64,000 bases of DNA from NCBI RefSeq assembly GCF_900111495.1, contig NZ_FOIU01000001.1, positions 1,240,001 through 1,304,000 of the forward strand, in the 5' to 3' direction. This DNA is from Chryseobacterium wanjuense. Its GTDB lineage: Bacteria > Bacteroidota > Bacteroidia > Flavobacteriales > Weeksellaceae. The notes beneath the pieces are model-generated. The model ran no database searches. It was given only the letters and a program-made list of their open reading frames with translations, and was not told the DNA's origin. Numbering within the stretch: position 1 is the stretch's first letter; every line of letters begins with the position of its first letter. Positions 10,943 to 57,333 of this stretch are shown in pieces. A program made the position numbers and the translations under genes.

Positions 10943-11072
10943 GGAGCTTTATCCCGCTTTCCGCACTCGCTATTTTTTTTGTTTCGCTGCGGTCTCGTCG
11001 AAGACGAGACCGCAGCGAAACAAAAAAAATGAGCTCAAACAAATGCTGCAATCGGGGCTAAGGTGGCAGTCG
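10943..11072. repeat. Long hairpin element, copy 1 (28-bp perfect stem)
   Basis: Conserved left end with ATCCCGCTTTCCGCACTCGC, then a perfect 28-base stem (10972-10999 with 11003-11030, loop GAA), then a right end TGAGCTCAAACAAATGCTGC followed by AATCGGGGCTAAGG and GCAGTC. Copy 2 at 25836-25962 has the same ends but a different, equally perfect stem. Open frames here (for example 10926-11135) are artefacts. Confidence 0.92.
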
Positions 11073-11120
11073 TTACTTTCAAGAGTCAAAGCCTTGACAA
11101 ACCTTACGATTTCAACACTC

Positions 11121-11273
11121 TGTTTGTCATCCTGAAAGGATCTCAACTATAGTATTAGAAAGAAACTTTGGTCATTGTGAACGTAGTTCAGGGAGGGACA
11201 AAGAAATCTCATTGTCTTATTTAGTTAAATGATTAATGTTTCGACTGTTGAGATCCTTACAGGATGACAAACT
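11121..11273. repeat. Facing pair of TGTCATCCTGAAAGGATCTCAA elements
   Basis: TTTGTCATCCTGAAAGG (11124-11140) runs into ATCTCAAC and TAGTATTAG; the complementary copy is at 11246-11273. A diverged member with GTCATTGTGAACG lies between them at about 11171-11212. The remainder of the spacer to 11448 shows no gene. Confidence 0.8.
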
Positions 11274-11448
11274 TTGCGGAAATTAGGATAAAAATACAAA
11301 ATAGCTAAAGCAAAATCAAATCAAAGGACGTGATGATTACATCTACAACGAGCTTAAAATCAAGATAATCATAACCTGAGGAAATTTATATGTTTTTGTT
11401 TGTTACTGCATCGCATTTTTTTTACTTTTAGCAAAACAAAATTTTACA

Positions 11449-12828
11449 ATGCAAGAGACATTAAATTACATTAACGAAAACAAACAACGTTTCGTGGATG
11501 AATTATTTGAGTTATTGAGAATTCCTTCTATTTCAGCTGATCCTGCGTACAAAAATGATGTGTTGAAATGTGCAGATGTTGTCGCAGAACACCTTAAAAA
11601 TGCAGGAGCCGATCATGTTGAAGTTTGCCAGACAAAAGGATATCCTATTGTTTTCGGGGAGAAAATTTTAGATAAAAATTTACCTACAGTTTTGGTATAC
11701 GGTCACTACGATGTACAGCCGGCTGATCCTTTGGAATTATGGACAAAACCACCATTCGAACCTTATATCGAGAAAACCGAACTTCACCCTGAAGGAGCTA
11801 TTTTTGCAAGAGGTTCTGCAGATGACAAAGGTCAGTTTTTCATGCATCTGAAAGCTTTTGAAGCAATGATGAAAACAAATGCTCTTCCTTGTAATGTGAA
11901 ATTTATTTTGGAAGGAGAAGAAGAAGTAGGGTCAGTAAGCTTAGGTGATTTCGTTAATGAAAATAAAGAAAAATTATCTTGCGACTGTATTTTAATTTCT
12001 GATACTCATATCTATAGCAACGAACAACCGACTGTTACGACAGGTTTAAGAGGATTAAGCTATGTAGAGGTTGAAGTTGAAGGACCAAACAGAGATTTAC
12101 ACTCAGGTCTTTATGGAGGTGCCGTTCCAAACCCGATTCATGTGCTTTCAAGAATGATCGCAAAATTAATCGATGAAGACGGACACATCACAATCGACGG
12201 GTTCTATGATAACGTAGAAACGGTTTCTGATGCCGATAGAGCCGACATGAATAAATTAAAGGATAACCCTGAAGAATTCAAAAAATCCATCGGATTGAGC
12301 GGAGTAGAAGGTGAAAAAGGCTATACAACCCTTGAAAGAACGTCTATCCGTCCGACATTAGACTGCAACGGAATTTGGGGCGGTTACACAGGAGAAGGTG
12401 CCAAAACAGTGATTCCTTCAAAGGCTTTTGCTAAAATTTCAATGCGTTTGGTTCCTTATCAGACTCCGGAAGAAATTACAGAAAAATTTACAGCATATTT
12501 TAAGAAAATTGCTCCTGCGAATGTAAAAGTGAAAGTAACCCCACATCATGGAGGTATGCCTTACGTTTTGCCTACAGATACTAAAGAGTTTTTAGCAGCA
12601 AAACAGGCTATGGAATCTGCCTTTGGAAAAGAAGTTCTTCCTTACAGAGGTGGTGGAAGTATTCCCATTACAGCAATGTTTGAACAGGTTTTAGGTGCTA
12701 AATCTGTATTAATGGGATTCGGATTGGATTCGGATGCGATTCATTCTCCTAACGAGCATTATGGCTTATTTAATTTCTATAAGGGAATTGAAAGTATTCC
12801 TTTATTCTTTGAAAATTACGCTAAATAA
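11449..12828 (+). CDS. M20 family dipeptidase
   Basis: Zinc-dependent exopeptidase of the carnosinase/CNDP-like M20 branch, predicted cytoplasmic, hydrolysing dipeptides. The 459 residues include the metal ligands and catalytic motifs in order: YGHYDVQP (about residues 85-92), GSADDKGQ with the bridging Asp (about 123-130), EGEEEVGS with the catalytic Glu pair (about 155-162), a ligand Asp in ISDTHIYS (about 183-190), and the C-terminal IHSPNEHYG (about 433). The dimerisation lid is inserted between, with DLHSGLYGGAVPNP. Length and order are normal. It stands alone, with its own terminator. The substrate cannot be deduced. Confidence 0.93.
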   Translation: MQETLNYINENKQRFVDELFELLRIPSISADPAYKNDVLKCADVVAEHLKNAGADHVEVCQTKGYPIVFGEKILDKNLPTVLVYGHYDVQPADPLELWTKPPFEPYIEKTELHPEGAIFARGSADDKGQFFMHLKAFEAMMKTNALPCNVKFILEGEEEVGSVSLGDFVNENKEKLSCDCILISDTHIYSNEQPTVTTGLRGLSYVEVEVEGPNRDLHSGLYGGAVPNPIHVLSRMIAKLIDEDGHITIDGFYDNVETVSDADRADMNKLKDNPEEFKKSIGLSGVEGEKGYTTLERTSIRPTLDCNGIWGGYTGEGAKTVIPSKAFAKISMRLVPYQTPEEITEKFTAYFKKIAPANVKVKVTPHHGGMPYVLPTDTKEFLAAKQAMESAFGKEVLPYRGGGSIPITAMFEQVLGAKSVLMGFGLDSDAIHSPNEHYGLFNFYKGIESIPLFFENYAK

Positions 12829-12848
12829 TTTTTTTATAAAAAAAAATT

Positions 12849-12881
12849 AATCCCTAAGGTGTTTCTTAGGGATTTTTTTTT
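12849..12881 (+). terminator. Rho-independent terminator after the M20 dipeptidase
   Basis: AATCCCTAAG / CTTAGGGATT perfect 10-bp stem, 6-base loop, T9. Confidence 0.93.
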
Positions 12882-12908
12882 ATATTTACCTCAAAATAAA
12901 TAATTATC

Positions 12909-13811
12909 ATGAAAAAACTTTTACTCTCTCTAGGGTTGTTTACCTTCCTTATAGGTAACGCTCAAATGAACTATAGCTTCGAATCTTCACAAGGATATAC
13001 TCTTGGAAACATTTCTGGACAAAACAGTTGGGGTGCTACGGCTGCTGCAAATATTGCGGTAGTTTCTGCTGAACAGGCAAATCCTGGTACACAATCTTTA
13101 AAAATTACAGGAAATAACGGCACTAATCACGCTGTAGCAGGGCCTATTAGTCCTACAACAACGGTAAATGGGCCAATAGTTACGGTTCTTTTTAATGCAT
13201 ACTTTACACCTTCAGTTCCTGCAGGAGATGAGTGTGACTTCTTTTTTTCACCGCAATCACCTTCTCAGAGTACTATCAATGCAAGAATGAGATTTGACTT
13301 TCAAAATAATATTCTTGTTGTTGACATGGATCCAACTACTCTTCAACTTGGATATATAGATACAGGCGCAAACTTTACAAGAAGTGCCTGGAATACTTAT
13401 AAAATACAATTAGATTTTGCTAATAATGAAGCAAAATATTATCAAAACGGTACACTAATCTATACCGGAGAAGTTGTAGGAGGAACAATGGTAGGTAATT
13501 TAGCAATTACGAATGATAACTACAACAGCTCTGCATATTTTGATGGAATTCAGGTAATAAGCGGAGTTCTTGGAACTTCAGATGTGAAAAAACTATCGTA
13601 TAAAATGTATCCTAACCCAACTTCTGACTTTGCAATCATCGAAACACCGGACAAAATAAACTCTATTGAAGTTTATGATTTCTCAGGTAAAAAACTAGAT
13701 GCGCCTTTTGTTAATAATAAGGTAGATCTTAGAGGATTGGCTGCAGGGGTTTATATTTTGAACATTAATACTCCTAAAGGTAAAGTAACCGATAGAATCG
13801 TTAAAAAATAA
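12909..13811 (+). CDS. T9SS-exported protein, lectin/laminin-G-like beta sandwich (tentative)
   Basis: Secreted or surface protein of unknown function, 300 residues. A signal peptide covers residues 1 to about 18 (FLIGNAQ). The central region (about 20-220) is beta-rich, with YSFESSQGYTLGNISGQNSW near its start and an AYFDGIQ strand near its end, reminiscent of concanavalin/LamG-type folds; this is only fold-level resemblance. The C-terminal domain (MYPNPTSDFAIIET ... RIVKK, about residues 230-300) is a T9SS type A sorting domain. It is the first of three adjacent genes with related tails, each with its own terminator. Confidence 0.8.
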   Translation: MKKLLLSLGLFTFLIGNAQMNYSFESSQGYTLGNISGQNSWGATAAANIAVVSAEQANPGTQSLKITGNNGTNHAVAGPISPTTTVNGPIVTVLFNAYFTPSVPAGDECDFFFSPQSPSQSTINARMRFDFQNNILVVDMDPTTLQLGYIDTGANFTRSAWNTYKIQLDFANNEAKYYQNGTLIYTGEVVGGTMVGNLAITNDNYNSSAYFDGIQVISGVLGTSDVKKLSYKMYPNPTSDFAIIETPDKINSIEVYDFSGKKLDAPFVNNKVDLRGLAAGVYILNINTPKGKVTDRIVKK

Positions 13812-13831
13812 GAATTAAAATAATATTATAT

Positions 13832-13860
13832 AAAACCGCTTTATTTAAAGCGGTTTTTTT
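13832..13860 (+). terminator. Rho-independent terminator
   Basis: AAACCGCTTTA / TAAAGCGGTTT stem followed by T7. Confidence 0.9.
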
Positions 13861-14008
13861 ATTTTCTATTCAAAAAAAAGAAGATGTAAAAAAGTAATGT
13901 ATAATTGTTTATTGTTGTAAATTTTCAACAAATATCACTTTTTAATGAAATAATATTTTGTTTTATTCTTAAATACTATTACATTTGATAATTGCACAAA
14001 ATACTATT

Positions 14009-14806
14009 ATGAAAACATTTTTACTAATCGGAGCATTCGTGGGTATCAACTCACAGATGAATGCACAAACTACTATTTTTAACGAAACTTTTGAAACCAA
14101 TTCTCCAACTGTCAATGATTGGTCATTTCTTGATAACGACGGCGATTCCCAAAACTGGACTATAGACGATGAACCTGCAAATACGGATCCGTGGGGATAT
14201 ACGGGTAGGATTTATGTTTCCCTTTCTGCAGGAACAACACCTGACAATGTGTTGATTTCTCCCGTCATAAACCTTCCGGCAGGAGCTACAACACTGTCCT
14301 ATCAGGTCGGCGGTTTTTTTCCTTCGCTGCCTGAGGAGCATTATGCAGTGTATGTTTTACCATCAAATGCTGTGTTTACGGGTAGCGAAGCTCCTGTTTT
14401 TGAGGAGACACTTACTGCAGCTGAAGCAAGTATGGCAGCCACAAGAACTGCAGATATTTCTGCGATAGCAGGGCAGGATGTGAAAATATATTTCAGACAT
14501 TATGGAACTAATAACCAGCTTGCTATTATTTTAGACAATGTTAAAATTACACAGAATGTTTTGGCAACTTCGGAGGTTTCCCATGCTGAAAAAATAGGAC
14601 TATATCCCAATCCTGTGTCAGATTTTATCAATTTAAAAACTCAGTCTAAAATCATATATTCGGAAGTTTATGATATGTCAGGAAGAAAAATAAATATTGA
14701 ATTAAATGATAATAAACTAGATGTAAGAAACCTGCAATCCGGAAACTATATCATTAAGATTGGAACGAAAGAAGGAATTACTTCCCAAAAGTTTATCAAA
14801 AAATAA
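14009..14806 (+). CDS. T9SS-exported choice-of-anchor J-like protein
   Basis: Secreted protein, 265 residues from the chosen ATG. The frame extends upstream to a TTG at 13985, but the signal peptide MKTFLLIGAFVGINSQMNAQ begins at 14009. The mature part starts with FNETFETNSPTVNDWSFLDNDGDSQNW, the pattern of the choice-of-anchor J (MAM-like) domain. It is followed by a jelly-roll with VKIYFRHYGTNNQLAIILDNVKI near its end. The tail LYPNPVSDFINLKT ... SQKFIKK (last about 70 residues) is T9SS type A and ends in the same TKEGITSQKFIKK string as the next gene, suggesting duplication of the tail or whole gene. Function unknown. Confidence 0.85.
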   Translation: MKTFLLIGAFVGINSQMNAQTTIFNETFETNSPTVNDWSFLDNDGDSQNWTIDDEPANTDPWGYTGRIYVSLSAGTTPDNVLISPVINLPAGATTLSYQVGGFFPSLPEEHYAVYVLPSNAVFTGSEAPVFEETLTAAEASMAATRTADISAIAGQDVKIYFRHYGTNNQLAIILDNVKITQNVLATSEVSHAEKIGLYPNPVSDFINLKTQSKIIYSEVYDMSGRKINIELNDNKLDVRNLQSGNYIIKIGTKEGITSQKFIKK

Positions 14807-14840
14807 ATAAATAAATAAATAAATTAAAAGATATATAGAC

Positions 14841-14867
14841 AAAACGCTTCGATTTCGAAGCGTTTTT
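14841..14867 (+). terminator. Rho-independent terminator
   Basis: AAACGCTTCGA / TCGAAGCGTTT perfect 11-bp stem, TT loop, T5. Confidence 0.9.
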
Positions 14868-15023
14868 CTTTTCATAAAATTTTTAAAATAGAGAAAATTT
14901 TTAAAAGATTTTCTTCATAATTATCAATTTTGCGCTCAATTCACATCTTTTGGAATTAGAAATTTGTTTTTATTTTTTGATGAAATAAATTTACTGCCAA
15001 TAATTATTTTAATAAAAAAACTT

Positions 15024-15938
15024 ATGAAAAAAATTTTATTTCTTACCGCTTTGTTGGGTATTTTACAGTTAAAAGCACAGACTGTTGTTTTTTCACAGAC
15101 ATCTTCAGGTACTACAGGGATAATTTCTGATGCCATTGCCAATGGCAGTTTTGTTGCATCTGCAGATGATTTTACCCTTACAAATCAGACGACAGTTACA
15201 AAAGTGAAAGTGGAAGGATTTCAAAATGCAGGTACTCTAGCAGCTATTGAAGCCACGGGATTAATGATGTACATTTATGCTGATAATGCAGGAAAACCTG
15301 CAGGAATTCCTAACAACCCTGCGGTGGCTCCAATTGCACAGATTGATATTGCCAAAGGGGCACCGGGTTATAGTTTAGTAAAGTCAGGAACATATAATTT
15401 TACTTTTTCTGTTGATGTGACAGCTGCTTTATCAAGTCCTTTGGTTTTGCAGCCAGGGACAGTGTATTGGTTGGTATTCATCGCTAAAACCAATTTATCA
15501 GATTTTACTTCTTCTGCCTCTACAAGATTCAACTGGTTTGCAGGACAGGCGAATGGAAATATGGCTAAATTGGTGGATCCAGGTAATGCCTTTGGAGTTG
15601 GTGCTACCTCATGGAGCACTATATCAACCTTAACCAACCAGCCTGCCTATAATGGTTTAGCATTTTCTATCGAAGGTAATAATGCGGTGTTGGGAACAAC
15701 CGAAGTATTTAGCAATATAAAAGAAATTGCTGTTTCACCAAACCCAACTTCAGACTATTTGTTTATAAAGGCTAAATCTAAAGTGAATAAAATTGAAGTT
15801 TTTGATTTTGCCGGAAGAAAAATGAATGTGAGCAGCAATGAAGAGAGAGTAGATGTAAGAGGCCTTCAGACCGGAAATTATATTATTAAAGTTGAAACGA
15901 AAGAAGGAATTACTTCTCAAAAATTTATCAAGAAATAA
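15024..15938 (+). CDS. T9SS-exported protein of unknown function
   Basis: Secreted protein, 304 residues. The frame opens at 14964, but the signal peptide MKKILFLTALLGILQLKAQ starts at 15024, which I take as the start. The body (about residues 20-230) is beta-rich, with a choice-of-anchor-like pattern (SFVASADDFTLTNQTTVTKVKVEGF and LQPGTVYWLVFIAKTN). I do not assign a domain. The C-terminus (VSPNPTSDYLFIKA ... SQKFIKK) is a T9SS type A sorting domain, nearly identical in its last 13 residues to the preceding gene. It is probably a surface or secreted adhesin or enzyme accessory; function unknown. Confidence 0.8.
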   Translation: MKKILFLTALLGILQLKAQTVVFSQTSSGTTGIISDAIANGSFVASADDFTLTNQTTVTKVKVEGFQNAGTLAAIEATGLMMYIYADNAGKPAGIPNNPAVAPIAQIDIAKGAPGYSLVKSGTYNFTFSVDVTAALSSPLVLQPGTVYWLVFIAKTNLSDFTSSASTRFNWFAGQANGNMAKLVDPGNAFGVGATSWSTISTLTNQPAYNGLAFSIEGNNAVLGTTEVFSNIKEIAVSPNPTSDYLFIKAKSKVNKIEVFDFAGRKMNVSSNEERVDVRGLQTGNYIIKVETKEGITSQKFIKK

Positions 15939-15962
15939 TTAATGATAAATGTTAGTATTAAT

Positions 15963-15987
15963 AAAACGCTCTAATTGGGGCGTTTTT
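15963..15987 (+). terminator. Rho-independent terminator
   Basis: AAACGCTC / GGGGCGTTT (one G-U pair) followed by T5. Confidence 0.75.
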
Positions 15988-16018
15988 GTTATTTTTAAGA
16001 ACTTAAATCCATGATATC

Positions 16019-16723
16019 ATGATAGAAAATAAAGTTGCTTATATAACGGGCGGAACCAAAGGTATAGGTTTGGGAATTGCCAAAATTTTACTTGAAAATG
16101 GAGTTTCGGTTGCATTTTCGGGGCGAAAAAGAGATGATGTGGAAAAAGCTGAACAAGATTTAAAGCAATATTCCGCAAATGTTTTAGGAATTGTTTCCGA
16201 TGTCCGAAGTCTGGAAAGTGAAGAGGAGGCCGTAAAATATATTAAAGAAAAATTCGGAAGATTGGATTTTGTTATTGCCAATGCAGGAGTGGGAATTTTT
16301 AAGCCCGTAGATCAGCTGACAGCCGATGACTGGAATGATATGATCGAAACGAATTTAACGGGAGTTTTCTATACATTAAAAGCGTCAGTCGAAGAATTAA
16401 AAAAGACAGAAGGCTATTATATCACCATCTCAAGTCTGGCAGGAGCCAATTTCTTTGAAAACGGAGCCGGCTACAATGCTTCAAAGTTTGGAGTGGTGGG
16501 CTTTACGCAGGCTGCAATGATTGATTTAAGAAAATATAATATCAAATCAACGGTAATCATGCCGGGTTCGGTGGCGACAAATTTCAACGGAAATATTCCT
16601 TCAGAAAAAGATGCATGGAAGATCCAGCCCGAAGATATGGGAAATCTGGTTTTGGATATTTTAAAAATGAATCCAAGGGTTTTGCCTAGTAAGATCGAAT
16701 TTAGGGCAACAAAACCAGCATGA
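16019..16723 (+). CDS. SDR family NAD(P)-dependent oxidoreductase
   Basis: Classical short-chain dehydrogenase, 234 residues, cytoplasmic. The dinucleotide site TGGTKGIGLGIA is at residues about 11-22. NAGVG is at about 90, and the catalytic set is Ser in TISSLAG (about 139), Tyr and Lys in YNASK (about 152-156). The VMPGSVATNF turn follows. The core is complete, and length is normal for 3-ketoacyl-reductase-like SDRs, but substrate cannot be predicted. It lies between a T9SS gene and etfB with no obvious operon partner. Confidence 0.9.
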   Translation: MIENKVAYITGGTKGIGLGIAKILLENGVSVAFSGRKRDDVEKAEQDLKQYSANVLGIVSDVRSLESEEEAVKYIKEKFGRLDFVIANAGVGIFKPVDQLTADDWNDMIETNLTGVFYTLKASVEELKKTEGYYITISSLAGANFFENGAGYNASKFGVVGFTQAAMIDLRKYNIKSTVIMPGSVATNFNGNIPSEKDAWKIQPEDMGNLVLDILKMNPRVLPSKIEFRATKPA

Positions 16724-16873
16724 TAAAGAGGTTTAATGCATTGAATAGTAAATTAATAAGTACTATGCATGCATAATATATTTTTTATTTATATTAGCAA
16801 AATTAATTAAAAACAAAATCTCGTATAAAAATCCCTAAGTTTTATACATAAGAGAAACAATAAAATAGTACAC

Positions 16874-17620
16874 ATGAAAATATTAGTTTGTATAAGTAGT
16901 GTTCCGGATACTACTTCCAAAATTAACTTTACGGCAGACAAATCTGCTTTCGACAAAAACGGAATTCAATGGGTAATCAACCCGTTAGATGAGTTTGCGT
17001 TAACAAAAGCAGTTAAACTTCAGGAATCTCAAGGTGCTACGGTTACGGTAATCAACGTTGGTGATGCTACTACAGAGCCTGTAATCAGAAAAGCTTTGGC
17101 AATCGGTGCAAATGATGCGGTAAGAGTAAATCTTGATCCAAAAGATAGCTACTCTACGGCAAAAGAAATCGCAGCAGTTGCTCAAAATGGTGGTTACGAC
17201 CTGATCCTTTGCGGTAAAGAATCTATCGATTATAATGGTGGTTCTGTTCCGGGAATGGTGGCTCAGTTACTGGGTAAGCCTTTCGTAAACGCGTCTGTAG
17301 GTTTAGATGTAAACGGAAGCGAAGCTACTGCAGTAAGAGAAATTGAAGGAGGTAAAGAAACTATTTCTGTAAAATTACCTGCTGTCATTGCTGGTCAGAA
17401 AGGATTAGTAGACGAAAAAGATTTGATCATTCCAAACATGAGAGGAATTATGTCTGCAAGAACAAAGCCTTTGCAGGTGGTAGAACCTACTTCTTCTGAA
17501 GTAAAAGTTCAGGGAGTTTCTTATGACAGTGTTCCGCCAAGAGCTGCTGTGAAATTGGTTTCTCCTGATAATTTGGATGAATTGGTAAGATTACTTCACG
17601 AAGAAGCGAAAGTAATTTAA
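16874..17620 (+). CDS. etfB: Electron transfer flavoprotein subunit beta
   Basis: ETF is a soluble FAD/AMP heterodimer that collects electrons from acyl-CoA dehydrogenases and passes them to the quinone pool. Beta has 248 residues with the usual start MKILVCISSVPDTTSKI, NPLDEFALTKAVKLQE (about 38-53), the AMP/adenine-site pattern ICGKESIDYNGGSVPGMVAQLLGKP (about 114-138) and the ETISVKLPAVI segment. etfA follows after a 135-base spacer containing degenerate repeat words, so the two are likely one operon. Confidence 0.96.
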   Translation: MKILVCISSVPDTTSKINFTADKSAFDKNGIQWVINPLDEFALTKAVKLQESQGATVTVINVGDATTEPVIRKALAIGANDAVRVNLDPKDSYSTAKEIAAVAQNGGYDLILCGKESIDYNGGSVPGMVAQLLGKPFVNASVGLDVNGSEATAVREIEGGKETISVKLPAVIAGQKGLVDEKDLIIPNMRGIMSARTKPLQVVEPTSSEVKVQGVSYDSVPPRAAVKLVSPDNLDELVRLLHEEAKVI

Positions 17621-17627
17621 TAAGAAC

Positions 17628-17750
17628 CAAGTAAAAAGTAAAAAGATTCAGGATAGAATTGATGTTTTCAAAATTTGAAAGTATTCAATTTCATTAAATA
17701 TACAATACAATTGGCAACCTTGAATCTTGAACGTTAAACCTTAAACAAAT
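17628..17750. repeat. Spacer between etfB and etfA with degenerate CTTGAATCTTGAA words
   Basis: Contains AAGTAAAAAGTAAAAAG words on the left and CCTTGAATCTTGAACG...AAACCTTAAAC on the right. It resembles the word-type spacer repeats seen elsewhere in the window. No gene. Confidence 0.35.
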
Positions 17751-17755
17751 TTAAA

Positions 17756-18703
17756 ATGGCAGTATTCGTATACGCAGAAAATATAAACGGAGTTTACAAG
17801 AAAGCGGCTTTTGAAGCAGTGGCTTATGCTAAAGCAATTGCAGATCAGGCTGGTGAAACAGTAACGGCAATTTCTGTAAACCCAACAGATTCTTCAGATT
17901 TATTATACAAATATGGAGCATCAAACGTTATCAATATTAAAGACGAAGGTCTTAAAAGTTTCTCAGCTAAAGCTTATGCTCAGGCTGTAAGTGAAGTGGC
18001 AAACGGAAATATCATCGTTTTCCCCCACACAACAGATGCTTCTTCCATCGCTCCGATGTTGGCGGTGATGAACGGACATTCGTTAATTACCAATGCATTA
18101 GCAGCTCCGGAAAGCCTTTCTCCGTTCCAGGTGAAAAGAAAAGCATTCTCAGGAAAAGGTTTTATGCATGCAAAAGCTGAAGGTGCAGGAGTAATCATTA
18201 CGGTTTCTCAAAATGCTTTTGGTGTTAAAGAAAATCCGGTATCTGGTTCAGAAGAAGTGAAAAATTTATCTGTTGCCAATGAAGATACTAAAGTGATCTC
18301 TCACGAGCAAAGTTCAGGAAAATTAGATCTTAAAGAAGCTGAAATCGTAGTTTCTGCAGGGAGAGGAATGAAAGGTCCTGAAAACTGGGGAATGATCGAA
18401 GAATTAGCCAACGTTTTAGGCGCTGCTACAGCTTGTTCTAAGCCTGTTTCCGATATCGGATGGAGACCTCACACAGAACACGTAGGACAGACTGGTAAAG
18501 CGATTTCGCCAAACCTATATATTGCAGTGGGTATTTCAGGAGCAATTCAGCACCTGGCTGGAGTAAACTCTTCTAAAACAATCGTAGTAATCAACAATGA
18601 TGCTGAAGCTCCGTTCTTCAAATCAGCTGATTATGGTGTTGTAGGAGATGCTTTCCAGATTATTCCTGCTTTAACGGAGAAAATTAAAGCGATCAAAGGA
18701 TAA
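17756..18703 (+). CDS. etfA: Electron transfer flavoprotein subunit alpha
   Basis: The FAD-binding partner of EtfB, 315 residues. The C-terminal FAD domain is clear: GRGMKGPENWGMIEELANVLGAA (about residues 200-222), SKPVSDIGWRPHTEHVGQTGKAISPNLYIAVGISGAIQH (about 227-265, the signature block) and VVINNDAEAPFFKSADYGVVGD near the end. The N-terminal domain is of normal length. It works with etfB directly upstream and with the thiolase at 24570 in the wider sense of fatty-acid or amino-acid degradation; that link is inference. Confidence 0.96.
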   Translation: MAVFVYAENINGVYKKAAFEAVAYAKAIADQAGETVTAISVNPTDSSDLLYKYGASNVINIKDEGLKSFSAKAYAQAVSEVANGNIIVFPHTTDASSIAPMLAVMNGHSLITNALAAPESLSPFQVKRKAFSGKGFMHAKAEGAGVIITVSQNAFGVKENPVSGSEEVKNLSVANEDTKVISHEQSSGKLDLKEAEIVVSAGRGMKGPENWGMIEELANVLGAATACSKPVSDIGWRPHTEHVGQTGKAISPNLYIAVGISGAIQHLAGVNSSKTIVVINNDAEAPFFKSADYGVVGDAFQIIPALTEKIKAIKG

Positions 18704-18712
18704 GAAAGGTTA

Positions 18713-18922: not shown

Positions 18923-18926
18923 ATAT

Positions 18927-18948
18927 AAAAGCCCCTTTCCGGGCTTTT
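18927..18948 (+). terminator. Rho-independent terminator
   Basis: AAAAGCCC / GGGCTTTT with CTTTCC loop, then T-rich. Confidence 0.85.
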
Positions 18949-18989
18949 ATTTTTGTCTAAAAAAGTGAAAACACAATTAAAAATTAATC

Positions 18990-18997
18990 TATATTTG
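18990..18997 (+). promoter_or_regulatory. -7 element TATATTTG for the bifunctional nuclease gene
   Basis: Exact TAnnTTTG match only 5 bases before the ATG at 19003. It implies a very short or nearly leaderless 5' end. Confidence 0.5.
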
Positions 18998-19002
18998 TAG
19001 TT

Positions 19003-19602
19003 ATGGATTATAAACAGTTAATTATTCGCGGAATATCGTACAGCCAGACACAATCCGGGGCGTACGCATTGTTATTGGAACATGAAGAGACACATATTAA
19101 ATTACCTGTTGTTATAGGAAATTTCGAGGCTCAATCCATTTCTTTAGGTCTGGAGAAAGACATCCATCCGCCGCGACCTCTTACCCACGATTTATTTACA
19201 AAATTTATAGTTTCTGCCAATTATGAGCTGGTTTCTGTTATCATTTACCAGATTGTAGACGGAGTTTTCTTCTCTAATATCAACTTTAAAAATAAAAGTA
19301 ATGATGAAGAACTCATTCTTGATGCCAGAACATCGGATGCAGTGGCAATGGCAGTGAGATTTGATGCTCCTATCTTCACGACTCAGCAGGTCCTGAACGA
19401 AGCCGGAATTCTCCTGGAACTGGAAGATGTTTCCAAGGAAGAACAGCCGTTTTCAGAGACCGTTCCTGCAGAAGATAACCTGAAATCGCTTTCTATGGAA
19501 GAACTTCAAAAATTGCTGGAAGATGCTGTAAAAGAAGAAGACTATGATACTGCTCTGGAGATTCAGGAAGAAATCAAAAGGAGAAAAAAGAATATTGATT
19601 AA
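19003..19602 (+). CDS. Bifunctional nuclease family protein (DUF151) with UVR motif
   Basis: Homologous to the plant BBD/bifunctional nuclease fold and to TM0160-type proteins. Nuclease activity is inferred for the family, not shown here. Of 199 residues, the first about 135 form the DUF151 domain (LPVVIGNFEAQSISLGLE, then RPLTHDLF, and LDARTSDAVAMAVRFDAPIF). After an acidic linker, the last about 37 residues (SMEELQKLLEDAVKEEDYDTALEIQEEIKRRKK) match the UvrB/UvrC UVR helical hairpin. A nucleoside transporter starts 21 bases downstream, so salvage of nucleolysis products is a possible theme, as inference. Confidence 0.9.
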   Translation: MDYKQLIIRGISYSQTQSGAYALLLEHEETHIKLPVVIGNFEAQSISLGLEKDIHPPRPLTHDLFTKFIVSANYELVSVIIYQIVDGVFFSNINFKNKSNDEELILDARTSDAVAMAVRFDAPIFTTQQVLNEAGILLELEDVSKEEQPFSETVPAEDNLKSLSMEELQKLLEDAVKEEDYDTALEIQEEIKRRKKNID

Positions 19603-19623
19603 AAGAGATATCTTATACTAATT

Positions 19624-21006
19624 ATGAATTTAAAACTACGACTTACCATCCTGAGTTTTCTTCAGTTCTTCGTTTGGGGAGCCTGGCTGATTACGATGGC
19701 TAATTTTTGGTTCGGTACGAAACACTGGGACGGGGCACAGTTTGGAGCCGTTTTCGGAACGATGGGGATTGCCTCCATTTTTATGCCGACCCTTACCGGA
19801 ATTATCGCCGACCGCTGGGTAAATGCAGAACGGATTTTCTCTGTTTTACAGATTTTATATGGGATCGTATTGTTCTTTTTACCACATACTTCGAGTCCCG
19901 GCTCTTTTTATTATGTCATGCTTGTGGCCATGTGCTTTTATATGCCGACGATTGCGTTGGCCAACTCTATTTCCTATACTGTTTTAAAAAATAGCAATCT
20001 TGATGTCGTTAAAGATTTTCCTCCCATTCGTGTATGGGGAACCATCGGTTTCATTGTAGCGATGTGGGTGACCAATCTTACAGGAAATAAAGCGACGGAA
20101 GGACAGTTTTATATCGGAGGAATTGCAGCCGTTGTTCTGGGGATTTATGCATTGACTTTACCGAAATGCCCACCACAGAGATTGATAGATAAAAATGCAC
20201 CTTTGGTTGAGCAGTTGGGTCTGAATGCATTCAAGCTGTTTGGTAATTACAAAATGGCTTTATTCTTCGGGTTTTCAATGCTTTTGGGTGCTGCGTTGCA
20301 GTTGACGAATGCCTATGGAGATGTTTTCCTGAGCGAGTTTTCTCATTTTCCCAAATATGCAGAGTCTTTTGTAGTTCAGAGATCAACGATTGTAATGTCG
20401 ATATCGCAGGTTTCCGAGACATTATTTATCTTGGCAATTCCTTTCTTTTTAAAACGATACGGAATTAAAAAAGTGATGCTGATTTCAATGTTTGCATGGG
20501 TTTTAAGATTCGGATTCTTTGCTTATGGCAGCCCGGAAGGTTATGGAGTATCATTAATTATTTTATCTTGTATTGTCTACGGAATGGCTTTCGATTTCTT
20601 CAATATTTCAGGATCGCTTTTCGTGGAAACTACGACGGATAAAAAGATCCGTTCTTCTGCACAAGGGCTGTTCATGATGATGACGAATGGTTTTGGAGCC
20701 TATTTCGGAAGTAATATTGCAGGTTGGGCTATTGATAAATTCTTTACTCACAAATTTACAAATGCTGCGCAATTATCAGCTTATCTGGATACGACACCCA
20801 ACAATCCTACCTTTCTTGAGATTCTAAAAAATACATTCAATTCTGCGATAAATGCAGATGGAACTTTGTCATCAGCAGTATTGTTGAGAGACTGGCCAAA
20901 TATCTGGATCGCTTTTGCGGCGTATGCCTTAATTCTTGCCGTTCTTTTTGCCATTTTGTTTAAACATAAGCATGATCCAAAAGAATTAGCAGACATAAAA
21001 CATTAA
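19624..21006 (+). CDS. Nucleoside permease, MFS NupG family
   Basis: Inner-membrane proton-coupled nucleoside transporter. The 460 residues give about 12 hydrophobic segments. The start NLKLRLTILSFLQFFVWGAWLITM is typical of the NupG/XapB type, as are FGAVFGTMGIASIFMPTLTGIIADRW (about 40-65) and VKDFPPIRVWGTIGFI (about 128-143). A cytoplasmic loop of about 30 residues separates the halves (KNAPLVEQLGLNAF). It lies just behind the DUF151 nuclease gene with the same orientation and is closed by a terminator. Confidence 0.88.
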   Translation: MNLKLRLTILSFLQFFVWGAWLITMANFWFGTKHWDGAQFGAVFGTMGIASIFMPTLTGIIADRWVNAERIFSVLQILYGIVLFFLPHTSSPGSFYYVMLVAMCFYMPTIALANSISYTVLKNSNLDVVKDFPPIRVWGTIGFIVAMWVTNLTGNKATEGQFYIGGIAAVVLGIYALTLPKCPPQRLIDKNAPLVEQLGLNAFKLFGNYKMALFFGFSMLLGAALQLTNAYGDVFLSEFSHFPKYAESFVVQRSTIVMSISQVSETLFILAIPFFLKRYGIKKVMLISMFAWVLRFGFFAYGSPEGYGVSLIILSCIVYGMAFDFFNISGSLFVETTTDKKIRSSAQGLFMMMTNGFGAYFGSNIAGWAIDKFFTHKFTNAAQLSAYLDTTPNNPTFLEILKNTFNSAINADGTLSSAVLLRDWPNIWIAFAAYALILAVLFAILFKHKHDPKELADIKH

Positions 21007-21032
21007 AATTATATCATTGATATTTAAAATAT

Positions 21033-21068
21033 TAAATTGCATTTTGAAAAAAAATGCAATTTTTTTGT
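21033..21068 (+). terminator. Rho-independent terminator
   Basis: AAATTGCATTTT / AAAATGCAATTT stem followed by T run. Confidence 0.85.
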
Positions 21069-21120
21069 TTTTCAGGCAACCATTTGAAAAATATCCCGTC
21101 TTATACATAGAAACTAGAAC

Positions 21121-21675
21121 ATGAGGAACTTAGAAGAGAATTTTAAGCTGGCAAAAAAACAGGATCGGAGAGGGCAGAAAGCGCTTTACGACATGTTCTC
21201 CGCGAGGATGCTTGCCATCGCAAATTCTTATACAAACAACCTTCATGATGCGGAAGATATTCTGATGAATGCCTTTATGAAATGTTTCTCAAGAATTGAT
21301 GAATGCAGAGAATGGAAAAGTTTCCCTTTCTGGCTCAGGAAGATTGTTGTGAACGACGCGATAAGTTTTATCCGGAAGAATAAAAATCTTCTCTATGTAG
21401 ACGTCGAAATTGCGGACGATTATTCTGAAGATGATTTTGGGGAAAATCTTGAGGAAATAAACATCGAAGAAATTTTTTCTAAAATACCGGACGGATATAG
21501 AGTGATTTTTAATCTGTATGTATTTGAAGAGAAAAAACATCAGGAGATTGCAGAAATCCTCAATATTTCGGAGGGGACAAGCAAAAGTCAGCTTAGTAAA
21601 GCTAAAAAATGGATCGCTGATTATTTAAAAACAAAAGAAAATGAAAAAAGAAATACTGAATCAATTAAAATCTGA
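21121..21675 (+). CDS. ECF-type RNA polymerase sigma factor
   Basis: Alternative sigma factor, 184 residues. Region 2 is at about 20-90 (MFSARMLAIANSYTNNLHDAEDILMNAFMKCF with the DAEDI pattern, then FPFWLRKIVVNDAISFIRKN). Region 4 is at about 118-170 (IPDGYRVIFNLYVFEEKKHQEIAEILNISEGTSKSQLSKAKKWI, a clear HTH). The linker is strongly acidic (DDYSEDDFGENLEEIN). The next gene starts inside its last 35 bases, indicating translational coupling with a membrane protein that is probably its anti-sigma or regulator. Confidence 0.92.
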   Translation: MRNLEENFKLAKKQDRRGQKALYDMFSARMLAIANSYTNNLHDAEDILMNAFMKCFSRIDECREWKSFPFWLRKIVVNDAISFIRKNKNLLYVDVEIADDYSEDDFGENLEEINIEEIFSKIPDGYRVIFNLYVFEEKKHQEIAEILNISEGTSKSQLSKAKKWIADYLKTKENEKRNTESIKI

Positions 21676-22363
21676 CTACGATAAGCGCGAAATAAAGCCT
21701 TCCGCTGATCTGTGGGATAGAATCGAACAGGGAATGGATAAAGCACCTGTTTTGAGCCCTAAAAAGTCATTTGAATGGATAAAATATGCTGCTGTGATAC
21801 TTCTTTTGGTTTCTTTTGGAGTAGTTTTTTATTTTAATTCAAATTCAACAGAAAAAAACAGAAATACATTCGCTGAAAAGCATCAATTGGAGAAAAATAT
21901 TGAAAAGGAAAATCTAGATATTGAAATCATTAATTCAACGATAAATAAAACTGAAAATAATATTGCTGTTTCTCATGAAATTAATAAACAACAAACCCAA
22001 CCTGAGAATACAATAAAAATTGTTCATGAAAATAGTCTTCCGGAGACAAATCATTATCAGTCATTATCAAAAGAGGAAAATCAAATAATTAATAAGGATA
22101 ATTTTAATACAAATCCGGTTGCTCAGGAGAAAATTATTACTCAAAATATCGAAAGGCCTTTTGTTGCCGAAAGGAAAAAGACAAATTATATAAAAGCTGA
22201 CGAATTGCTTTTGGGAAGGGAATTTGATAAAACCCGTGAAGAAAGCCAGGATCATCACAAAACTTTCGGAGTGGTAGATATGGGAAAAATTAAAATCAAA
22301 AGCCCAAATTCATTTAAAATACTAGGAATGACCGTCTTTTCCGATTCTTTGGAGTCTAAATAA
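21641..22363 (+). CDS. Single-pass membrane protein, probable anti-sigma partner
   Basis: No named family. The 240 residues begin with an amphipathic cytoplasmic segment (about 1-45, with ADLWDRIEQGMDK, the kind of N-terminus seen in proteins coupled to flavobacterial ECF sigma genes). One membrane segment follows (about 47-66, IKYAAVILLLVSFGVVFYF), then an Asn/Glu/Lys-rich periplasmic region to the end. The start overlaps the sigma gene by 35 bases. The anti-sigma role is inferred from position and topology only; no zinc-binding HxxxCxxC motif is present. A barrel-like protein gene follows after 80 bases. Confidence 0.7.
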   Translation: MKKEILNQLKSDYDKREIKPSADLWDRIEQGMDKAPVLSPKKSFEWIKYAAVILLLVSFGVVFYFNSNSTEKNRNTFAEKHQLEKNIEKENLDIEIINSTINKTENNIAVSHEINKQQTQPENTIKIVHENSLPETNHYQSLSKEENQIINKDNFNTNPVAQEKIITQNIERPFVAERKKTNYIKADELLLGREFDKTREESQDHHKTFGVVDMGKIKIKSPNSFKILGMTVFSDSLESK

Positions 22364-22443
22364 ATCATTAAACTTTTACATAAAAAATACTGTTCCGAAA
22401 ACGAACAGAGGTAAAATATTGTCTAATAATAAAATTTAAAAAT

Positions 22444-23523
22444 ATGAAAAAGAAAATTGCTCTAATGACTGCTGTAATGGCTTTTTCTTACACTTTTGCA
22501 CAGGAAAATCCGCATTTGAAATCGTATTCTGAAAAGATCGACAGCATTGTAGTTTCCGAAAAATCTAAAATGAATGCCGAATTGGACGATGTGGACAGAA
22601 ATTTTAAAGATAAAAAAATCACAGCAGAAGAAAAACAAAAGCAGAGAGCCGATATCGCTTCCAGATATGAAGAAATGATCAACGAGAAAGTGGATGCCCA
22701 ACAATCTGAACTTGAAAATGCCACAAAATCAATGGTGAGAAGTGCTGTCTTAGGGAAAAAAGATTCTCTGTATCACGGTAAAAATCAATTGGAGCTGGGA
22801 CTTGGCGGGGTGAAAATGAAGATCAATAAAGATAAGACTCCTAAAGATTATCTGCGTACTTGGGAGCTTGCGGTAAGCCTTACGGGCGCGAATCTCACTG
22901 AAAAAAATGAATTCTTCAAATTTTACAACAAAGAATCGGATGTAAGAAGTACGATCATCAATTCCTCGCAATTTGTGTTGAGGTATGAAAACCAGCTAGG
23001 AGGCTTCACGAGTCCGGTATTTTACCGTATTGGTTTGGGAGTGAGATCCGACAGATATGTTCCAAAATATGGCAAAGCTTTCATGCAGCAGGACAAAACT
23101 TTATTTGTGGACGAATTTACCAGAGGAAATTTAAAAAGGACCTACCTGGGCAATGCCTATATCTTTGTTCCTGTAGATTTGAAGTTTGTTTTAAACCCAA
23201 AATATGTGGTACATGAAGGGGTGAAATATTTAGATAACAAAAAGAGTCAGTTGAACATCGTCGCAGGTATTTATGGAGGGGTGAGAACACAAAGTGTAAT
23301 ATATAACAAATATTCTACTGAAGACTCTAAAAGAATTGTAGAAAAGGAAAGAGTAATGCAAGGTGTAAATAATTTTGTTTTTGGAGGAAAATTTGGAATC
23401 GGATATGGTGGAATCAATTTATTTATTCAAAAAGATTTTACTCCGTTATTCAATAATGATGCTCAGCTGAAGAAGAAATACGGGCTTCAGATTGGTATCG
23501 AAATAGCCAATGTTAATTTTTAA
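22444..23523 (+). CDS. Predicted outer-membrane beta-barrel protein with N-terminal coiled coil
   Basis: Family not recognised. A signal peptide covers residues 1-19 (SYTFAQ). It is followed by a charged helical region (about 20-100, long runs of Glu/Lys with heptad character), then by alternating hydrophobic strands (LELGLGGVKMKI, TWELAVSLTGANLTE, QFVLRYENQLGG, SPVFYRIGLGVR, IVAGIYGGVR, FGGKFGIGYGGINLFIQKDFTPLF). The chain ends in an aromatic residue (IANVNF), as barrel proteins often do. It follows the sigma/anti-sigma-like pair in the same direction and may be its target; that is inference. Confidence 0.65.
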   Translation: MKKKIALMTAVMAFSYTFAQENPHLKSYSEKIDSIVVSEKSKMNAELDDVDRNFKDKKITAEEKQKQRADIASRYEEMINEKVDAQQSELENATKSMVRSAVLGKKDSLYHGKNQLELGLGGVKMKINKDKTPKDYLRTWELAVSLTGANLTEKNEFFKFYNKESDVRSTIINSSQFVLRYENQLGGFTSPVFYRIGLGVRSDRYVPKYGKAFMQQDKTLFVDEFTRGNLKRTYLGNAYIFVPVDLKFVLNPKYVVHEGVKYLDNKKSQLNIVAGIYGGVRTQSVIYNKYSTEDSKRIVEKERVMQGVNNFVFGGKFGIGYGGINLFIQKDFTPLFNNDAQLKKKYGLQIGIEIANVNF

Positions 23524-23618
23524 TTTGATAATGTTACTGGATTTATTTTACGAAATATTTAAATTTATTCTTAGAATTTTACTATTTATAATTAATTGAT
23601 ATAAAATATCTATTTTTA

Positions 23619-23648
23619 AAACACACTTATTTTAAGTGTGTTTTTTTT
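23619..23648 (+). terminator. Rho-independent terminator after the barrel-like gene
   Basis: AAACACACTTA / TAAGTGTGTTT stem, T8. Confidence 0.9.
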
Positions 23649-23671
23649 CGTATTTTGGCACTTTAAGAAAT

Positions 23672-24055
23672 ATGAAAAATATTCAGTTATTAGGATTGAT
23701 ATTGGTGGTTGTAGGAAGTTTCCTGCCGCTGGTTCATGTTCCTGTCATAGGCAACTGGAGCTATTGGAAACTCGATCATTATTTAGCGATCGCATGTTGG
23801 GTTTTGTCTGCCGGCGCACTGTTCGCAATTGTGAACAACAGTGGAAAAATGGCAAGAATTTTTGCGATTCTGCTAATCCTTTTATTCCTTTTCACCTTAT
23901 TTGCCGTGAAGGTTCAGGCTTTGCAGTATTTCAGTTTTATGCCTTTTAAATCATGGCAGGAAAAACTGGCAGGCATTGTAAAACTGAGATGGGGCTGGAT
24001 CGTAGAATTTTTAGGTGCTTTTATCATAATTTTTGCGAAAAATAATAATAAATAA
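23672..24055 (+). CDS. Small integral membrane protein, unknown
   Basis: 127 residues from the ATG at 23672. The longer frame from 23636 lies in the preceding terminator and adds residues without a membrane-protein pattern. Four hydrophobic segments are visible (about 4-22, 33-52, 60-80, 105-122). There is no recognised domain or catalytic motif. The next gene (24067) begins 11 bases after its stop, so the two are probably co-transcribed. Confidence 0.65.
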   Translation: MKNIQLLGLILVVVGSFLPLVHVPVIGNWSYWKLDHYLAIACWVLSAGALFAIVNNSGKMARIFAILLILLFLFTLFAVKVQALQYFSFMPFKSWQEKLAGIVKLRWGWIVEFLGAFIIIFAKNNNK

Positions 24056-24066
24056 CAGACACAGAT

Positions 24067-24522
24067 ATGAACTTTTTGAAGATATTTTCAGCAGCAGTAT
24101 TGGTTTTAGGAGCTTCTCAGATGAATGCCCAGAAAAAAGGAACAGCTACTCCGAAAAAAGAAGTCCCTCAACAAAAAAAACAGGTGGACAACCCTACAAA
24201 GTGCAGTAATATTAAAGAAGGAACATTTTTGCGAACCAACTATCCAAAAAATCTTTGGTATATGACGGTGAAAGATAATGTTCAGACAGAATATTACAAT
24301 GGCGGAAAAGATTATGTCAAATCAAGCATGGTTTTCCTTGACGATTGCAATTATAAGCTTATTGTTCTTGAAAAAACGGAAAAAAACAATCCTATTAAAG
24401 TTGATGATGTCTTTACAAATAAAGTTGTTGCAACTCAAGATAATTACATTAAAATAGAATCTAAAATTGCAGGAGATAAGTATGATCTGATTTTAATAAA
24501 ACTAAAGGAAAATATAAAATAA
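24067..24522 (+). CDS. Secreted protein, unknown function
   Basis: 151 residues. A signal peptide covers about 1-21 (VLVLGASQMNAQ). Then a Lys/Pro/Gln-rich linker (about 22-45) leads to a small beta-rich domain with two cysteines (in NPTKCSNIKEGTF and FLDDCNYKLIVLE) that could form a disulfide. Patterns such as NLWYMTVKDNVQTEYYNGG and IESKIAGDKYDLILIKLKENIK suggest a small lipocalin-like or beta-sandwich fold, but I do not assign one. Probably periplasmic. Confidence 0.7.
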   Translation: MNFLKIFSAAVLVLGASQMNAQKKGTATPKKEVPQQKKQVDNPTKCSNIKEGTFLRTNYPKNLWYMTVKDNVQTEYYNGGKDYVKSSMVFLDDCNYKLIVLEKTEKNNPIKVDDVFTNKVVATQDNYIKIESKIAGDKYDLILIKLKENIK

Positions 24523-24569
24523 AAAATTGAAAGGCTTTTATTAGCTAAATTTAAAAATAGAAATATAAC

Positions 24570-25748
24570 ATGAAAGAAGTATTCATCGTTTCCGCAGTAA
24601 GAACTCCGATGGGAAGTTTTATGGGAAGTTTATCAACGGTTCCTGCCACAAAGTTGGGATCTGTTGCAGTAAAAGGAGCATTAGATAAAATCGGTCTGGA
24701 TCCTAAACAGGTTCAGGAAATCTACATGGGAAACGTTTTACAGGCGGGAGAAGGTCAGGCGCCGGCTCGTCAGGTTGCTTTAGGAGCTGGTCTTTCAAAC
24801 GAAACACCTTCTACTACGGTAAATAAAGTTTGTGCTTCGGGAATGAAGGCTGTTACGATGGCTGCACAGGCAATCAAAGCTGGTGATGCAGACGTTATCG
24901 TTGCCGGAGGTATGGAAAACATGTCTTCAGTTCCTCACTATTATAATGCAAGAAACGCTACCAAATTAGGTGACGTAAAAATGCTTGACGGAATGGTTTT
25001 AGACGGTCTTACAGACGTTTACAACAAAGTTCATATGGGAGTTTGCGCAGAAAAATGTGCAACAGACTACAGCATTTCAAGAGAAGATCAGGACAATTTT
25101 GCGATCGAATCTTACAAAAGATCAGCAAAAGCTTGGAGCGAAGGAAAATTCGCAGAAGAGGTGGTTCCGGTATCAATTCCTCAAAGAAAAGGAGATCCTG
25201 TCGTTTTCGCTGAAGACGAAGAATATAAAGCGGTAAATTTTGATAGAATTCCTACACTTCCTACAGTTTTCAAAAAAGAAGAAGGAACGGTAACGGCTGC
25301 AAATGCGTCAACTCTTAATGACGGAGCTTCCGCGTTGATCCTTGTTTCTAAAGAGAAAATGGAAGAATTAGGTCTTAAACCATTGGCAAGAATCGTTTCT
25401 TATGCTGATGCTGCTCAGGCTCCGGAAGATTTCACGACTGCACCTTCAAAAGCGTTGCCAATTGCTCTTAAAAAAGCAGGTTTATCGCTTACAGACATCG
25501 ATTTCTTCGAATTCAACGAAGCGTTTTCTGTGGTAGGTTTAGCCAATAACAAAATCTTAGGATTAGACGCTTCTAAAGTGAACGTAAATGGTGGAGCAGT
25601 GGCGATCGGTCACCCACTTGGAAGCTCAGGTTCCAGAATTATCGTTACTTTGATCAACGTTTTAAAACAAAATAACGGAAAATATGGTGCTGCAGCGATC
25701 TGTAACGGTGGTGGCGGTGCTTCTGCTATTGTTATTGAAAATATGTAA
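24570..25748 (+). CDS. Acetyl-CoA C-acetyltransferase (thiolase)
   Basis: Condenses or cleaves acetyl/acyl-CoA; the sequence fits acetoacetyl-CoA thiolase (AtoB/PhaA type) best. The 392 residues show the nucleophilic cysteine in NKVCASGMKAV (about residue 88), GGMENMSSVPHY, the NASTLNDGASALIL segment (about 244-257), NEAFSVV, the catalytic His in GHPLGSSGSRI (about 348), and the second cysteine in CNGGGGASA near the end. Such an enzyme could feed HMG-CoA and the mevalonate pathway, of which a kinase is at 30435, or work in degradation with EtfAB. The choice cannot be made from sequence. Confidence 0.94.
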   Translation: MKEVFIVSAVRTPMGSFMGSLSTVPATKLGSVAVKGALDKIGLDPKQVQEIYMGNVLQAGEGQAPARQVALGAGLSNETPSTTVNKVCASGMKAVTMAAQAIKAGDADVIVAGGMENMSSVPHYYNARNATKLGDVKMLDGMVLDGLTDVYNKVHMGVCAEKCATDYSISREDQDNFAIESYKRSAKAWSEGKFAEEVVPVSIPQRKGDPVVFAEDEEYKAVNFDRIPTLPTVFKKEEGTVTAANASTLNDGASALILVSKEKMEELGLKPLARIVSYADAAQAPEDFTTAPSKALPIALKKAGLSLTDIDFFEFNEAFSVVGLANNKILGLDASKVNVNGGAVAIGHPLGSSGSRIIVTLINVLKQNNGKYGAAAICNGGGGASAIVIENM

Positions 25749-25771
25749 TCATTATTTTAAAATAATATTCA

Positions 25772-25805
25772 AAATCTGGAAGTTAAGGCTTTCGGATTTT
25801 TTGTT
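25772..25805 (+). terminator. Rho-independent terminator after the thiolase
   Basis: AAATCTGGAAG / CTTTCGGATTT stem with G-U pairs, then T6. Confidence 0.7.
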
Positions 25806-25835
25806 TTTAATGAAATCTGGTTTAATTTTTTTTTT

Positions 25836-25962
25836 GAAGCTTAATCCCGCTTTCCGCACTCGCTATTTTTTTGTTTAGGGGCGGCCTCGTCAAAGACGAG
25901 GCCGCCCCTAAACAAAAAAATGAGCTCAAACAAATGCTGCAATCGGGGCTAGGGTCGCAGTC
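25836..25962. repeat. Long hairpin element, copy 2 (27-bp perfect stem)
   Basis: The ends are the same as copy 1 at 10943 (ATCCCGCTTTCCGCACTCGC left; TGAGCTCAAACAAATGCTGC then AATCGGGGCTAGGG right). The stem 25865-25891 pairs perfectly with 25895-25921, loop AAA. Four stem positions and one T/A run length differ from copy 1, every change being matched on the other arm. Confidence 0.92.
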
Positions 25963-26029
25963 CCTGAAAGCAATCTCTTGAAATAAAACATATCTGGTAA
26001 GGATCTTGATACAACAAAATGTACAGCAA

Positions 26030-37391: not shown

Positions 37392-37392
37392 A

Positions 37393-57125: not shown

Positions 57126-57234
57126 ATAAAAAATTGAAAAGGTAATTTGAAAATCAGAATGGAAATGTTGAAAAGTTTAGAAACAAAAAAAGATAATTTT
57201 CAAATTACCTCTCTTCAACTTAAACCAATAAAAA

Positions 57235-57331: not shown

Positions 57332-57333
57332 TG

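Follow-up and report, generated by a model that had tools for sequence, protein, structure and literature searches.

Two Hairpin Elements in the Window

The subject of this analysis is a pair of hairpin elements, each with a long stem enclosed by conserved ends, in a stretch of 64,000 nucleotides from Chryseobacterium wanjuense (contig NZ_FOIU01000001.1, positions 1,240,001 to 1,304,000; hereafter the window), and the question considered is how the two arms of such a stem remain identical while its sequence changes. Copy 1 occupies 10943–11072 on the + strand, as given by the orientation of the conserved ends, and is matched by model R1 at C1:1250943–1251072 with 154 bits. Its perfect stem of 28 bp is formed by a left arm at 10972–10999 and a right arm at 11003–11030, which are separated by the loop GAA at 11000–11002, and the conserved right end TGAGCTCAAACAAATGCTGCAATCGGGGCTA lies at 11030–11060. 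Outside the stem, CCCG at 10953–10956 is paired with CGGG at 11053–11056 in an outer helix, which shows two-sided changes in other copies. Copy 2 occupies 25836–25963 on the same strand (C1:1265836–1265963, 145 bits), and its perfect stem of 27 bp consists of a left arm at 25865–25891, the loop AAA at 25892–25894, and a right arm at 25895–25921, followed by the conserved right end at 25921–25951, where the 3′ side of the outer helix is located at 25944–25947.

The initial annotation, made from the sequence alone, had placed both copies correctly, and only the end of copy 2 moves from 25962 to 25963 according to the model match. The stem lengths, the perfect pairing and the loops that it gave were all verified, and the four stem pairs differing between the copies, together with a length difference of one T and one A, were found as it described. 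The left end occurs 2 times in the window, where 0.01 is expected from shuffles, and both copies fold far below their shuffles (z = −8.2 for copy 1 and −7.9 for copy 2). Intrinsic terminators whose flanks are alike by chance were rejected, because the order of T run, stem, and A run is wrong on both strands and because the ends are common to 9 copies in the genome. The remark in the initial annotation that the window has no transposase was checked for the five genes adjoining the copies, which in a Pfam scan were ordinary or without a Pfam match.

Distribution of the Element Family

A pattern of the right end that takes no account of the stem found 9 copies in the whole 4.67-Mb genome, and the reversed pattern found 0. 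All 9 copies carry a perfect stem, which is long in 8 of them, with very different sequences, and 9 bp in the remaining 1. When the 8 long copies are aligned, 99.4% of the 315 pair cells are paired (2 unpaired), compared to 35–55% in slid controls; 52 changes are two-sided, 0 are one-sided changes that keep a standard pair, and a two-sided change is found at 19 of the 40 pairs. A model search added L018 and L019, which have the same ends, so that 11 copies are recognized in the genome, and four other species have 33–37 copies each. With the covariance model built from the 8 long copies, matches were obtained for 38 of 59 genomes, including 34 of 36 within the genus, and the model also picks up a sister form within the genome of the window.

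A stem-blind scan for the left end, using one genome per species, gave at least 120 stretches; among the 80 matches listed, 79 are from Chryseobacterium and 1 is from a gammaproteobacterial metagenome-assembled genome (MAG), where the right end is absent. Carriage by phages was looked for with the exact 18-base left-end pattern, which had 0 matches in viral contigs. At the loci of the two window copies, the element in either form was found in 6 and 4 of the 30 genomes examined, which are the best 30 matches of 60 genomes having the flanking gene. Mechanical gene calls around 147 copies place 7 of them within an open frame; for 102, the gene beside the left end is directed toward the element. 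The element family is dispersed, mostly intergenic, and related to the Rfam family Flavo-1 (RF01705).

At the locus of copy 1, the filled and the empty sites both lie directly after a terminator T run. Strict insertion after terminators was rejected, as a terminator-like hairpin is found upstream in 64% of the 147 copies and in 52% of shuffles, a difference on which we base no rule. A short-stem form with the same ends (8–11 bp, T/C against A/G) was observed at L009, L051, L052, L054, L056, L059, and L063, and further members are L141, L168, L170, L210, and L373; for L009, L051, and L373, other species have orthologues that share this form.

Pairing of the Stems

The pairing was counted in 253 non-redundant copies from 299 rows, where one off-center copy was excluded from the pair counts. 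The palindromic core has about 19–31 bp per arm, and the 5677 stem pairs comprise 5584 Watson-Crick, 19 G.U, 31 A.C, and 43 other pairs. A perfect stem is found in 199 of the 253 copies, and the number of different left arms is 205. In the set collected without regard to the stem, the right end is present in 76 of 81 left-end matches, the other five being the MAG, two poly-G stretches, and two contig ends; 60 of these 76 are perfect, and their 1725 pairs are divided into 1712 Watson-Crick, 4 G.U, 5 A.C, and 4 other pairs. If selection for RNA pairing were acting, G.U would be favored on the transcribed strand. The numbers of G.U and A.C in the stems of the 253 copies show no clear difference (p = 0.12), which indicates that G.U is favored on neither strand.

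Some of the mismatches, which were kept in the counts, resemble sequencing errors at the hairpin (C or G runs in L429, L433, and L349). The contig ends and poly-G stretches in the unmatched rows of the stem-blind set suggest that assemblies break at the hairpin. The left end is followed by poly-G in L148 and L164, and contig ends or poly-G or poly-C runs at the hairpin occur in L148, L164, L195, L205, L429, and L433. The hairpin seems to interrupt assemblies and to make reads fail, so draft genomes may contain more copies than are counted in them.

Relation to Flavo-1

The conserved ends align with Flavo-1 over model positions 1–76 on the minus strand, and the remark in the initial annotation that no named element of this kind was known is corrected by this relative. 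On the minus strand, L001 (copy 1), L002 (copy 2), and L008 score 32.5, 32.7, and 31.4 bits, respectively, and do not reach the Rfam gathering score of 42; the further long-stem copies L092, L060, and L019 score 30.8, 28.9, and 20.6 bits, and the long-stem loci of two other genomes reach up to 36.7 bits, which is still below 42. The sister form in the genome of the window is Rfam Flavo-1, which scores 60–71 bits in one set of copies and reaches 71–78 bits. The window copies are a long-stem sister form of Flavo-1 that lies under the family cut-off.

Both forms have the minus-strand ends UAGCCCCGAUUG...GCGGAAAGCGGGA in the same order, the outer helix, and a central stem flanked by A/T, and they occur in the same genomes. 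They differ in the central stem, which is long, almost perfect, and hypervariable in the long-stem copies, whereas the classical Flavo-1 core commonly has an A.C mismatch (12 of the 13 copies shown) and an internal loop such as TCC/TCC. In the outer helix, 1593 of 1644 cells are Watson-Crick across 274 copies, some of which are counted twice, and the mismatches on the + strand at 103 loci, likewise with some copies counted twice, are 13 A.C (equal to G.U on the minus strand), 4 G.U, and 15 other. With this lean toward G.U on the minus strand, the ends may yet act at the RNA level.

A classical core in the genome of the window and a long-stem core in another species were observed at the orthologous loci L023/L042, L024/L120, L032/L085, L035/L083, and L037/L076, which represent either replacement of the core or repeated insertion at one site. 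A third element of this superfamily lies in the window at 37274–37392 on the + strand (37.8 bits with R1; 38.4 bits with Flavo-1 on the minus strand), where the outer ends of the copies enclose a C-rich core without a strong hairpin (fold z = −0.2); it may be a decayed copy.

Flavo-1 is the product of a comparative-genomics screen (Weinberg et al. 2010, PMC2864571), and its table entry there, y/n/n, is read here as RNA yes, cis-regulatory no, and switch no. According to a transcriptome study of Flavobacterium psychrophilum, Flavo-1 hits fall on either strand of transcripts without distinction, and many are outside any transcript (PMC9723704). A literature search on Flavo-1 turned up no paper on its mechanism.

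Changes at Orthologous Loci

Comparison of the flanks gave 185 ortholog pairs among 162 copies, where three pairs at 100% identity come from one genome that is present twice (G009 and C. cheonjiense). The orthologues of both window copies have quite different yet perfect stems (L001/L102, with 81.9% flank identity, and L002/L097). The changes were followed at shorter distance in four close species, G026, Chryseobacterium sp. ZHDP1, C. gambrini, and C. mucoviscidosis, in which 6 of 143 loci without a recognized end pair were dropped to leave 137 copies. A total of 131 of the 137 copies are at 38 shared loci, 24 of which are present in all four species, and 6 have no orthologue among those fetched. 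The stems at these loci differ by single matched pairs, matched insertions, and loops replaced by their reverse complement, in addition to unmatched changes; for example, the loops across the four species are AAAA, TTTT, TTTT, and AAAA at one locus and GGA, TTT, AAA, and TCC at another.

By flank identity, the four species form two sister pairs, and comparisons within sisters only were treated as independent. They number 59, of which 50 are comparable position by position (9 dropped), with 909 stem pairs. A total of 68 stem pairs changed, 36 of them in a matched way (4.0% of pairs) and 32 in an unmatched way (9 G.U, 10 A.C, and 13 other), while 701 of 11425 sites differ in the spacers (0.061). 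The matched changes are 28 transversional and 8 transitional, compared to 331 and 370 in the spacers (p = 0.0005), and most of them cannot pass through G.U. The loops are the same in 26 comparisons, the exact reverse complement in 14, otherwise changed at equal length in 11, and of other length in 8. Among the loop changes that keep the length, 14 of 25 are reverse complements, where 22.9% is expected on redrawing from the pool (p = 0.0004).

The claim of the initial annotation that the stem changes in pairs between fixed flanks therefore stands in part: 36 of the 68 sister changes are matched and the ends are constrained, but the remaining 32 are unmatched in one species. Such unmatched substitutions in orthologous stems, which had been named as evidence against the claim, do occur, but they seem to be short-lived, given that 199 of the 253 copies are perfect.

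Over all ortholog pairs, 136 of 172 non-independent pairs were usable and 36 were not comparable by position. The position-wise counts were trimmed by up to 2 bases off each end, with the central loop forced to 3 or 4, and the stem rate counts omit the outermost four pairs. Under this procedure, differences are found at 247 of 2492 stem pairs (0.099) and are matched at 176; where both stems are perfect, 120 of 1540 pairs differ (0.078), compared to 2001 of 26234 sites in the spacers (0.076). In the conserved ends, 234 of 10309 sites differ (0.023), compared to 0.076 and 0.087 in the two spacers. The stem thus changes about as fast as the spacers, whereas the ends are constrained. As the ends are kept at each locus amid drifting spacers, the element probably has a function.

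Chimeric arms were found in L361, L408, and L099, where the blocks at the base of the two arms are identical to those of two different orthologues. In the classical Flavo-1 pair L437/L448 (94.8% flank identity), an exact segment of 26 nt including the asymmetric internal loop is inverted, which in direct reading would count as 9 mismatches. Changes are few in the other close classical pairs compared; in L446/L447 and L450/L455 they are unmatched.

Mechanism of Stem Maintenance

The best explanation, in which we have considerable confidence, is that the stem is kept paired by template switching during replication (quasipalindrome correction) and that the ends are under a constraint of their own. 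Copying from arm to arm, for example by template switching, had been preferred in the initial annotation and is supported by the comparison of orthologous loci. In the proposed process, the palindrome would fold when it is replicated as single-stranded DNA, and the polymerase would sometimes switch its template between the arms. With a switch within the arms, one arm would be rewritten from the other, and a new mutation would thereby be either erased or doubled; a switch spanning the loop would also invert the loop. The arms would thereby remain nearly identical while the sequence of the stem drifts, and chimeric arms may arise when alleles recombine within the hairpin and the resulting mismatch is then resolved by copying. 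The observations behind this explanation are the matched change near the spacer rate, the inversion of loops, the chimeric arms, the lack of preference for G.U intermediates, and the misfit of selection alone. The agent would be template switching at replication rather than another process of arm conversion, and the block differences at the base of the stem would come from exchange with other alleles or copies.

The rates of change were compared to a one-pair Markov model, which was fitted solely to the share of mismatched pairs, 0.0161 (0.0164 in the 253 copies). Selection alone gives 0.0002 matched and 0.0071 unmatched changes in the model, and copying alone, at 122 times the site rate, gives 0.0498 and 0.0318, where the observed values are 0.0396 and 0.0352. 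As far as the model goes, copying fits, and selection alone yields roughly 200-fold too few matched changes. The estimates, which depend on the model, are about 10 times the single-site substitution rate for loop inversion and about 120 times for arm correction. In 71 other hairpins at the same loci, 13 of 108 changes are matched, compared to 36 of 68 in the elements (p = 9e-9), and controls restricted to the sister pairs, 10 hairpins, have 0 of 6 changes matched.

Several points count against this explanation. The mutation itself is not directly observed, and the case is built on the comparison of sequences. The conservation of the recognition ends implies that selection acts on the element, and it may act on pairing too. 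Many copies, including the four-species set, were found by a pair-aware model, so that paired copies are favored, and the selection model omits double mutants fixed from low frequency. The share of transversions among the matched changes is 0.78, compared to 0.48 predicted by simple copying; this excess probably reflects that several changes come as blocks, and hence are also non-independent. The control hairpins are mostly shorter (67 of 71 have 8–12 bp), include more distant pairs, and were selected as perfect in one species, which favors unmatched changes, so that the control is indicative; one of the 10 hairpins of the sister-pair control also has an inverted loop. The orientation of the loop is balanced for AAA and TTT (42 and 37) but unequal for GAA and TTC (63 and 35, p = 0.006) and for GGA and TCC (19 and 5, p = 0.007).

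Selection for a Flavo-1-like RNA hairpin on the minus strand, in which compensatory substitutions of the ordinary kind restore the pairing, would agree with the kinship to a family described as RNA, with the constraint on the ends, and with the outer helix, which varies in pairs and whose mismatches lean to minus-strand G.U. We regard it as unlikely, because G.U in the stem is favored on neither strand, the matched changes are mostly transversional and near the spacer rate, and selection alone misses the rate of matched change in the model by the factor given above. The Flavo-1 hits reported without regard to transcript sense also speak against it (PMC9723704), and the swapping of loops for their reverse complement and the chimeric arms are wholly unexplained by selection.

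Replacement of whole cores through recombination with other, already perfect copies in the genome appears quite improbable, although the dialects of the stems seem to be genome-specific (judged by eye) and the block differences at the stem base, the chimeric arms, and the classical and long-stem cores at orthologous loci of different genomes would be expected from it. Many differences between sisters consist of a single matched pair or a flipped loop in a stem that is specific to its locus and has not changed otherwise, and the diversity of left arms (205 in 253 copies) also speaks against such replacement. It is hardly credible that the enzyme of a mobile element, for example a Y1/REP-type transposase acting on single-stranded hairpins, renews the hairpin at each movement, since stems change without movement at loci common to the four species and no copy lies in the stretches fetched around three Y1 matches (the nearest is about 2.3 kb from one), even though the element is multi-copy with fixed ends, is present at some orthologous sites only (6 and 4 of 30 genomes), and Y1 transposase matches exist in the genome.

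Comparison to Known Systems

Template switching between inverted repeats has been described to leave homogenized arms and inverted spacers, in yeast (PMC8604942), rRNA (PMC8794818), and E. coli (PMC7202029). The elements share with quasipalindrome template switching the homogenization of the arms, the inversion of the spacer or loop, and the change of several bases together, and the corresponding marks are present here as homogenized arms, matched changes, inverted loops, and the 26-nt inverted segment in L437/L448. They differ in that the process appears here as the normal way in which a dispersed family evolves, at dozens of orthologous loci; inversions of the loop are rare in rRNA, with 69 loop-only cases and 6 with compensatory change in the counts given by PMC8794818. 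The mitochondrial palindromes of Nematomorpha are likewise perfect, and template switching has been put forward as a possible reason why their arms are concerted (PMC6649704), but they lie within mitochondrial coding sequence and are not a family with fixed ends.

An assignment to the repetitive extragenic palindromic (REP) elements and their RAYT transposases was rejected, as the genome has three Y1_Tnp matches and no copy of the element was found in their stretches of ~3 kb (about 1.5 kb on each side). REPINs are likewise associated with RAYT transposases. Unlike REP elements and REPINs, the core of the present element is not conserved, and the ends are conserved instead. The likeness to REP elements (PMC2817692) is that they are short, mostly intergenic, palindromic, and present in many copies. 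Another perfect palindrome of 15 bp (A[G/T]CCTTGTCAAGGTT...AACCTTGACAAGG[C/A]T) was observed in L125 at 1116–1148 and 1528–1560, near or inside a partial Y1-transposase match, and a similar one is found in L023; the palindrome of L125 may be a REP of a RAYT. Elsewhere in the window, the Bacteroidales small signal recognition particle RNA (RF04183, 97 bits) is located at 57232–57337 on the minus strand.

Implications

Template switching is already known as a mechanism. What appears to be new, so far as the literature was searched, is that it operates regularly on a dispersed element of bacteria, together with the flipping of loops and the link to an RNA family defined by covariation. A conserved RNA structure is conventionally proved by matched changes in the two arms. 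In these elements, such changes accumulate near the spacer rate without preference for G.U, and the loops are inverted, which indicates that a covariation signal can arise by mutation alone. This bears on the reading of families defined by covariation, such as Flavo-1. It is a possibility, which we place slightly below even, that mutation by arm-to-arm copying, instead of selection on RNA, produces the paired variation of its long-stem relatives and also some of the paired variation in Flavo-1; in such a case, a DNA element would have been filed as RNA because copying imitates covariation, and it would be a natural reporter of template switching at dozens of loci per genome. Through these elements, each genome preserves dozens of records of a process of mutation that is otherwise studied mainly with reporters.

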